Assembly (NCBI RefSeq): GCF_027627575.1
Contig: NZ_CP114065.1
Location: 248,001-312,000 of the forward strand
DNA from: Kribbella sp. CA-293567
Lineage (GTDB): Bacteria; Actinomycetota; Actinomycetes; Propionibacteriales; Kribbellaceae
Length of the DNA stretch: 64,000 nt
Direction of reading: 5' to 3'
Under the pieces are notes generated by a model. The model made no database searches. It was not told where the DNA came from and saw nothing but the letters and a program-made list of their open reading frames with translations. The translations under genes were made by a program, and so were the position numbers. Numbering within the stretch: the first letter of the stretch is position 1; every line of letters begins with the position of its first letter. This document shows positions 9,795 to 63,284 of the stretch, in pieces.

Positions 9795-9899
9795 CCGTGA
9801 TCCCCTTGCTCTCGTCTGCACTACGCTAACCGAGGCCAGAGCTAGCTTATGTGTCTCCAGCAGTGATCCTGTCAGGTGTCCGTTACGAGGAGTCGAGTC

Positions 9900-10166
9900 G
9901 TGCCCGAGTCGAGCAGTCGCAAAACCAAGAAGTCGTCCGCCGAGAAGGTCAAGGTGGAGAAGACTCCGAAGAAGCCGCGTACCACCAGCCGGGTGTGGGT
10001 CGCCCCGGTGATGCTGGGCTGCTGGCTGCTCGGCCTGATCTGGCTGGTCGTGTTCTACGTGGCCGGCCAGGACATCCCGGTGATGCGCGACCTGAACAAC
10101 TGGAACCTGCTGATCGGCATGGGTCTGATCGCCGTCGGCTTCGTCGTCTCCACCCAGTGGATCTAG
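9900..10166 (+). CDS. crgA: Cell division protein CrgA
   Basis: A small membrane protein that binds FtsZ- and PBP-containing complexes and coordinates septation with growth. It has a basic, Lys/Ser-rich N-terminus (SSSRKTKKSSAEKVKVEK) and two transmembrane helices, about 39-60 (VWVAPVMLGCWLLGLIWLVV) and 72-88, ending STQWI. The start is GTG 9900 with GAGGAG at 9887-9892. At 88 residues it has the usual length. It stands at the edge of the conserved block; the DnaA-box patch lies directly downstream. Confidence 0.95.
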   Translation: MPESSSRKTKKSSAEKVKVEKTPKKPRTTSRVWVAPVMLGCWLLGLIWLVVFYVAGQDIPVMRDLNNWNLLIGMGLIAVGFVVSTQWI

Positions 10167-10271
10167 CCGTTCCCCAGCGTTCCGGACTTCGGACCCCAGC
10201 CGGCGATCGGGCGCAACCGGCTCGGGTCCGAAGTCAACCGCGGTAGCGTCAGCGCCGCTCGGCTCGGCGGT

Positions 10272-10408
10272 TTATCCACATGGGTATCCCCAGCTGTGCA
10301 CAGCTTTCAGCCGACTTTTCCCCAGGTTTTCCCCGGTTTTCCGGCCGATTCGGCCGAAAATGGCCGAAATCTGTGGATAAAGAAGGTTTGATCACGGCTT
10401 TATCCACA
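10272..10408. promoter_or_regulatory. Cluster of three perfect DnaA boxes
   Basis: TTATCCACA occurs at 10272-10280 and 10400-10408, and its complement TGTGGATAA at 10372-10380. All three match the consensus 9-mer exactly. Between them lie a 14-base palindrome AGCTGTGCACAGCT (10292-10305) and a T/C-rich run with three TTTTCC units, unusually AT-rich for this genome. The last box overlaps the stop codon of the hydrolase gene. dnaA and dnaN are not in the window, so this is more likely a DnaA-binding regulatory or titration site than oriC itself. Confidence 0.65.
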
Positions 10409-11299
10409 GCTGGGGAGCACGCTCCCCAGCCGGGCGGCGAAGTCCTGGGGAAACTCATGGGCCAGGCCCGGCACCCGCTCGATCGTGATGCCGAACGAGG
10501 TCAGCCGGGCTGCCGCGTCGTCCACCACCTCGAGCAGTTCGTCGGCGGTGCCGATCAGGATCGTGGCCGGAGCCAACGGCTGCTGAGCCTGCTCCGGCAG
10601 GACGCGCAGAGCCGGCCCCACTACTACGACCCCCGCCGTCGGCACCGGCTCGGCTTCGAGAGCCCAGTTGAGCGCGATCCGTCCGCCGGCCGAGAAGCCC
10701 GCGGCGATCAGCGGCAGGTCACGGAGCTCCGCCGGCAGGTGATCCAGCGCCCGGGCGACGTCCTTGGCCGACTGCGCCGGATCCGGCCAGGTCCGGTACA
10801 TCGGCGACATCAGTTGCGACGACTCCACGCCGACCAGCGCGTAGCCGAGGTCGAGCACACCGGCCCAGTCGCGCATCGCGTGCGTGGCGCGCTGCCCGGC
10901 GCCGTGCAACGCGACGACGACACCGCCGGGCTTACCCGACTCGGGCAGAGCGATCAGCGGCGGATCCTCCGCGACGACCTTGCGAGCGCGTGACAGCTCG
11001 ACGATCGCCTGGAACGCGGGAAGGTACTGGAGGGCGGTCAGGTCGTCGTCCTCGGTGAGGATGCTCTCTTCCCACCAGCCGCCGGCCTCGCTGGCCTGCT
11101 GCAACGCGACCAAGGCCTGAGTCGACTCACCGATCGAGCCCAGCAGGCAGGCCCGCAGATGGGCGAGCTCCGCCGTCCAGGGCTGGAGCTCGGCGTCAGC
11201 GGTGTCCAGCAGGTCCAGCGCGACCTGCTGCAGGCCCTCGTCGTACAGAGCGGACACTCGGTCGGTGAGCTGGTCGTAGCGGTTCTCAGGAGTCTGCAC
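10400..11299 (-). CDS. Alpha/beta-hydrolase fold protein with helical N-terminal region
   Basis: Probably a carboxylesterase- or dienelactone-hydrolase-like enzyme; the substrate is unknown. The N-terminal third (about 1-110) is helical with TPR-like features (ALYDEGLQQVALDLLDTADA, ACLLGSIGESTQALVALQQA). The C-terminal part carries the fold: oxyanion strand VVALHGAGQ, nucleophile elbow GFSAGG and a late His in GLAHEF. The start is taken as GTG 11299; a longer in-frame start at 11341 would reach into the divergent promoter. It faces the EXLDI gene across a short region with repeated CTACGTAG, so the pair may be co-regulated. Confidence 0.7.
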   Translation of the reverse strand: MQTPENRYDQLTDRVSALYDEGLQQVALDLLDTADAELQPWTAELAHLRACLLGSIGESTQALVALQQASEAGGWWEESILTEDDDLTALQYLPAFQAIVELSRARKVVAEDPPLIALPESGKPGGVVVALHGAGQRATHAMRDWAGVLDLGYALVGVESSQLMSPMYRTWPDPAQSAKDVARALDHLPAELRDLPLIAAGFSAGGRIALNWALEAEPVPTAGVVVVGPALRVLPEQAQQPLAPATILIGTADELLEVVDDAAARLTSFGITIERVPGLAHEFPQDFAARLGSVLPSCG

Positions 11300-11316
11300 C
11301 GGACGAGTTTGGCATA

Positions 11317-11359
11317 TATGTAGACGCCTACGTAGAGACATGCGTATAGTTCTACGTAG
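11317..11359. promoter_or_regulatory. Duplicated CTACGTAG operator in a divergent promoter
   Basis: The 8-base palindrome CTACGTAG occurs at 11328-11335 and 11352-11359, exactly 24 bases apart. Partial identity extends upstream of each copy (13 of 19 positions match between 11317-11335 and 11341-11359). The second copy abuts the GGAGGAG ribosome binding site of the EXLDI gene. Ribbon-helix-helix proteins usually bind such short tandem palindromes, and the EXLDI protein has a candidate RHH segment. Confidence 0.55.
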
Positions 11360-63224: not shown

Positions 63225-63284
63225 TGTGGATATCTCCGGGGTGATGACCCTTCATCCCCCGGTTTACCCACAACCTGTGGATAA
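63225..63284. promoter_or_regulatory. Second small group of DnaA-box-like 9-mers
   Basis: TGTGGATAA at 63276-63284 is a perfect complement of the DnaA box. TTACCCACA (63264-63272) and TGTGGATAT (63225-63233) each differ from the consensus by one base. The group fills the gap between the pentapeptide-repeat gene and the convergent VanZ gene. Confidence 0.4.

Follow-up and report, generated by a model that had tools for sequence, protein, structure and literature searches.

The window analyzed here is a 64-kb stretch (positions 248001-312000) of the Kribbella sp. CA-293567 chromosome, a single contig of 7,611,196 bases; coordinates below are those of the window unless the genome is named. An ORF from the ORF list at 9876..10166 (+) codes for the cell division protein CrgA, as had been proposed from the letters alone, and this identity was borne out by a match to PF06781 (E 3.4e-30). 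The true start, judged by eye, is likely the GTG at 9900. The named relatives of this protein at 78-97% identity (n=15) were all from Kribbella, and the next best match had 55%. Downstream of the gene, a 12-bp inverted repeat was read at 10185..10235 (+; arms 10185-10196 and 10224-10235), which might possibly represent the crgA transcription end. A gene for an alpha/beta hydrolase-like protein (ORF list; PF22316 and PF12146) occupies 10400..11341 (-) and is convergent with crgA.

Exact copies of the DnaA box TTATCCACA were found where these genes converge, at 10272 (+), 10372 (-) and 10400 (+), which agrees with the earlier claim of three perfect boxes in 137 bases. The same reading had described the patch as AT-richer, and its GC content was indeed 51.1% (10272-10408) compared with 68.9% across the window; the lowest GC in any 30 bp was 37% in the element and 40% in the dnaA-dnaN gap. 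The element begins with a core at 10272..10303 (+), defined by positions and by a 32-row genus alignment, which consists of box TTATCCACA (10272, +), GTATCCCCA (10284, +) and a facing box over TGTGCACA (10295, -). Its parts TTATCCACA, TCCCCAG and TGTGCACA were invariant over the 32 rows. The palindrome noticed earlier between the boxes is readable as the 14-bp AGCTGTGCACAGCT at 10292-10305. The TTTTCC repeats, likewise present (10316, 10327 and 10337), form a segment of weak box-like words at 10316..10342 (+), the first of which corresponds in the alignment to the conserved TTnTCCCCA. Further on are the exact box at 10372..10380 (-), whose TGTGGAT was invariant across the genus alignment, the conserved word AGGTTTGA at 10384..10391 (+) with an invariant GTTT, and the exact box at 10400..10408 (+), which was aligned with TTTCCACA or TTGTCCACA in other Kribbella. 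The last box overlaps the stop codon of the hydrolase-like gene and doubles as its last codons plus stop (TGT GGA TAA, minus strand); the gene itself is outside the element proper.

A dinucleotide model predicted 0.037 exact copies of TTATCCACA per 64 kb. Genome-wide, this word occurred 46 times in 7.61 Mb versus 6 times for the reversed control word, and TTGTCCACA occurred 59 times versus 15 for its control. If the density of the 9-mer in this genome (46 copies counted) is used instead, still only ~1.4e-5 triples of this kind would be expected per genome. The three boxes in 137 bp are thus far above chance, as had been stated, and a chance origin was ruled out.

CrgA was detected in all 58 genomes searched (37 from the genus, ours included, and 21 from the order). 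In 31 of the 37 genus genomes, the 600 bp that follow the crgA stop contained a perfect TTATCCACA, and in most of these an inverted box came 100-102 bp later. The genus alignment and a sequence model were built on 32 of the 37 loci, with the five loci lacking TTATCCACA in the first 800 bp excluded. In this alignment 58 of 143 columns were invariant. Its left end reads GTTATCCACA-n3-GTATCCCCAG-n-TGTGCACA, its middle TTnTCCCCA, and its right side AAATCTGTGGAT, AGGTTTGA and TTnTCCACA, with a few varying positions. Mean pairwise identity (19 loci) was 32% in the upstream flank and 91% over the element's initial 32 bp.

When the model of the non-coding element was used in searches, each of the 37 genus genomes gave one strong match (E <= 9e-26 in 36 genomes and 8.7e-10 in G028). 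The G028 element (L076, G028:C1:5699560-5699686) was much diverged, and three further weak model matches were seen in that genome. The element was on the crgA contig in 36 of the 37 genomes, 4-1141 bp from the crgA match (within 400 bp in 31); in G014 it was on a contig other than that of crgA. Plain DNA similarity to the crgA intergenic region was detected in 36 of 38 genus genomes. Neighboring genes differed among the genus loci; the count of gene orientations behind this statement used a crude rule for calling ORFs and serves only to show that neighbors differ. Besides its main match, the model gave three others (up to E 10) in the Kribbella sp. CA-293567 genome, to the opposite strand of the same place (E 0.003), to DNA upstream of dnaB (E 0.05) and to a further site (E 2.4). 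The element is thus partly two-fold symmetric. These data exceed what had been noted from the window, in that the boxes belong to a larger, conserved, ~137-bp non-coding element, which is kept by close relatives (37/37 genomes), in 36 of them near crgA.

We then considered the whole class, in which CrgA (PF06781) occurred in 147 of the 148 genomes searched. The region downstream of crgA was studied in 93 of these 147, picked to cover all families outside the order of the window, and 21 from the order itself were analyzed separately. A perfect TT[AG]TCCACA was present within 500 bp after crgA in 67 of the 93 genomes, which represent 20 of 32 families, and was not found in this interval in the other 26. 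Its density was ~60-fold higher after crgA (103 in 46,154 bp) than elsewhere in the same loci (7 in 188,590 bp). In the order, a perfect box within 600 bp after crgA was seen in 13 of 21 genomes. A sample of named organisms (67 of 80 loci, after 13 of 15 Kribbella were dropped as already covered) yielded boxes in 38 of 67 loci, with 67 boxes in 33,444 bp versus 8 in 342,378 bp. All 13 Streptomyces loci in this sample had a perfect box after crgA, and none of the five Cutibacterium loci (L157, L165, L179, L187 and L189) had one within 500 bp; the Cutibacterium branch has apparently lost the element. Many of the loci that lack a perfect box have boxes with one mismatch at the usual spacing, but some have none of these either. 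By sequence, the association of crgA with these boxes appears to be old in the class. The constant box spacing favors a single homologous element in the class members over repeated recruitment beside crgA.

This spacing was analyzed with the rule TTnTCC[AC]CA, one mismatch being allowed. The usual class layout is a pair of head-to-head boxes at 10-11 bp plus a tandem third box. The pair was found at 10-11 bp in 57 of the 93 class elements and at 10-11 or 22-24 bp in 67, and the full trio, with the tandem box at 12-13 bp, in 48. Tail-to-tail pairs at 10-11 bp occurred in only 2 of 93, and counts in shuffled sequences were near zero. Facing pairs were also present in the f7/g12 genomes G060, G094, G116, G167 and G176. 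Two f7/g12 CrgA proteins were compared, and their best match was PDB 2mmu, which we take to be the M. tuberculosis CrgA structure. In Kribbella, 10 of 32 elements had a head-to-head pair at 10-11 bp under the strict rule and none of the 32 had the strict trio, because the facing box is TGTGCACA (invariant in 32/32); with this change the Kribbella core is recognizable mainly by position. The oriC regions, 21 in number (our genome, 10 other Kribbella and 10 of the order), had a different geometry, with a head-to-head pair in 1, the trio in none and tandem pairs at 12 bp in 18.

Several other groups of DnaA boxes were observed in the Kribbella sp. CA-293567 genome. The fourth exact TTATCCACA of the window (63276) is part of a group at 63225-63284, in which ATATCCACA (-) and TTACCCACA (+) are followed by the exact box (-), which faces the latter at 12 bp. 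This group is ~22 kb from dnaA; DNA similarity to it was detected in 35 of 38 genus genomes, and the boxes were kept in the six loci read. A box-rich stretch is also located upstream of dnaB, the replicative helicase gene (L108 2532-2821; genome C1:448.53-448.82 kb), and was conserved in 15 of the 16 loci aligned; the remaining one proved to be a different place. This stretch accounts for weak model matches 180-190 kb away, whose location upstream of dnaB ruled them out as oriC. The dnaB gene itself seems to bear an intein (split family match; intein recognized by eye). In addition, L033 (C1:485.0-486.5 kb) has three TTATCCACA and two TTGTCCACA in 1.5 kb, overlying genes that by eye look like those for an AsnC-type regulator and a cystathionine gamma-synthase-like protein, and L034 (C1:3098146-3098249) has three TTGTCCACA ~47 bp apart, each within a copy of a short direct repeat.

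The single match to the dnaA AAA+ domain in the genome was at genome positions 333673-334158 (minus strand), i.e., outside the window, which ends at 312000. Thus dnaA lies ~21 kb past the right end of the window and ~75 kb from the boxes after crgA, which agrees with the two earlier suggestions that the window is near the origin (the dnaA-dnaN gap is ~75 kb from the boxes) and that dnaA is absent from it. In the 32 genus genomes with both on one contig, the distance between the element and dnaA was 49-75 kb (median 63 kb).

What might this element do? Several perfect or near-perfect boxes outside oriC are a feature of titration clusters. The sequence-only reading had considered a locus that titrates or controls DnaA, similar to datA or DARS, and such a locus outside oriC is now well supported by conservation in the genus and the class, by a head-to-head geometry nearly absent from the oriC regions examined, and by published DnaA binding at the corresponding place in mycobacteria. 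We favor, with moderate confidence, an extra-oriC DnaA element that acts mainly by holding or inactivating DnaA. Several DnaA molecules would occupy the ordered boxes, with the perfect 9-mers as anchors, and assemble into a small complex, as published for mycobacteria; the core of the element has two boxes in tandem and one facing them. Being 49-75 kb from dnaA and oriC, the element would be duplicated soon after initiation and would then hold DnaA or alter its nucleotide state, thereby shifting the amount of active DnaA that reaches oriC. As similar stretches adjoin crgA in many actinobacteria, the element probably helps set the time at which chromosome copying starts.

The closest competitor is a DARS-like role, in which ADP-DnaA on the head-to-head pair, aided by the tandem box, would release ADP and yield ATP-DnaA, thus promoting initiation. 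Its polarity is that of E. coli DARS1 and DARS2 in the 48 class elements with the pair and tandem box, and the pair occurred in only 1 of 21 oriC regions. Head-to-head boxes I and II are described as characteristic of DARS, unlike oriC (PMC10380432). However, facing boxes are 10-11 bp apart here and 14 bp apart in both E. coli cores, the strict form is missing in all 32 Kribbella elements, and the clusters that S. coelicolor and B. subtilis have near oriC are described as acting negatively, repressing untimely initiation (PMC4585315). We regard a DARS-like function as possible, if rather unlikely, and net sequestration, by titration or inactivation, as somewhat likelier than reactivation. A more specific version, to which we give slightly less credence still, is that actinobacteria have in this element their own equivalent of DARS, with its own geometry. 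It would combine a facing DnaA pair only 1-2 bp apart with a tandem box, and would have stayed next to crgA as the class evolved, serving to exchange the DnaA nucleotide near oriC. If so, the cryptic DnaA site of mycobacteria would be an example of this type.

DnaA could also act at the element on transcription of crgA or a neighboring gene, and the regulation of crgA by DnaA had been considered earlier. The element does adjoin a cell-division gene, and the similar box group upstream of dnaB does precede a gene start. However, the element is 3' of crgA, between convergent genes in the window, and is probably not a crgA promoter element; its distance from crgA varies (4-1141 bp) and the neighbors change. 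Moreover, in M. tuberculosis dnaA mutants the expression of both flanking genes, Rv0010c and Rv0011c, was reported as unchanged (PMC7738170), the latter being crgA (PMC3989709). Control of crgA transcription is thus unlikely, and the earlier suggestion was not upheld. A second or former replication origin is very improbable: the box module GTTATCCACA-n3-GTATCCCCAG of the element does recur in the dnaA-dnaN gap and GC is lower, but that gap is itself box-rich, dnaA is 75 kb off, the box geometry is unlike oriC, and no origin-like GC-skew switch was seen at the element or anywhere in the 64-kb window, where skew was uninformative. That the stretch works as RNA (a hairpin or terminator) and not as DNA bound by protein, as the inverted repeats formed by the boxes at 10272 and 10372 might suggest, is equally improbable: changes in the 10372 box (rows L045-L047, L052 and L070-L072) are unmatched by the invariant first box, and Rfam gave just three weak matches, all below the gathering score.

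To our knowledge, only a small number of extra-oriC loci that control DnaA are understood, mostly from E. coli. Streptomyces clusters of DnaA boxes, named H69, H24 and D78, are located around oriC, and one of them may be the crgA-linked element. A holding or inactivating element would resemble the S. coelicolor clusters (Smulczyk-Krawczyszyn 2006, cited in PMC4585315), which are outside oriC and restrain initiation, those of B. subtilis, which are likewise outside oriC and limit initiation (PMC13220808), and E. coli datA, also a box cluster outside oriC that restrains initiation (PMC10380432). In datA, an IHF site between the boxes is needed, and the locus promotes ATP hydrolysis on DnaA (PMC10380432). 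In the E. coli DARS1 and DARS2 cores, as read from the MG1655 sequence, the first box is faced by a second at +14 and followed in tandem by a third at +26. These cores share with the class elements the facing boxes and the tandem third at ~12 bp in the same polarity (PMC8682772, PMC10380432); the facing spacing differs, being 14 bp there and 10-11 bp in 57 of the 93 class elements.

The element most similar in position is the mycobacterial one. The M. tuberculosis Rv0010c-Rv0011c region is a DnaA interaction site, bound in vitro and in vivo (Hicks 2020, PMC7738170), and ChIP in M. smegmatis recovered homologues of the same five mycobacterial DnaA regions (PMC7738170). It is directly 3' of crgA, as is the element in the window and in 36 of 37 genus genomes (4-1141 bp), and it contains a cluster of box-like words that includes a palindrome of two such sequences (PMC7738170), similar to the facing pairs of the class and to the TGTGCACA facing box of Kribbella. 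However, DnaA binding was demonstrated there and is predicted in Kribbella, where the element is also longer and has boxes separated by 100 bp. Mutations at the mycobacterial site are recurrent in clinical strains, and its variants led to longer cells (PMC7738170), although longer cells from engineered variants are not by themselves proof of titration. In Kribbella, box clusters were present at four of the five mycobacterial kinds of place (four were looked at): the dnaA-dnaN gap, the gap before dnaA (two TTGTCCACA 12 bp apart; rpmH recognized by eye), upstream of dnaB, where the stretch matches a published mycobacterial DnaA site (PMC7738170), and after crgA. Among titles and abstract openings in the open-licence literature, outside which most subscription papers fall, we found no report of a class-wide conserved crgA-linked DnaA element or of a DARS-like polarity with its own spacing. 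The kind of element was known already and one likely homologue had been mapped experimentally in mycobacteria; what is new is the class-wide conservation and the geometry. This locus is a candidate for DnaA titration, inactivation or reactivation in a class for which little is known about loci of this kind. The mycobacterial site, described by its authors as being without obvious counterpart in other bacterial species (PMC7738170), has likely counterparts that adjoin crgA in at least 20 of the 32 actinobacterial families sampled, with a regular box geometry unlike that of oriC, and its function thereby becomes testable in harmless model actinomycetes.
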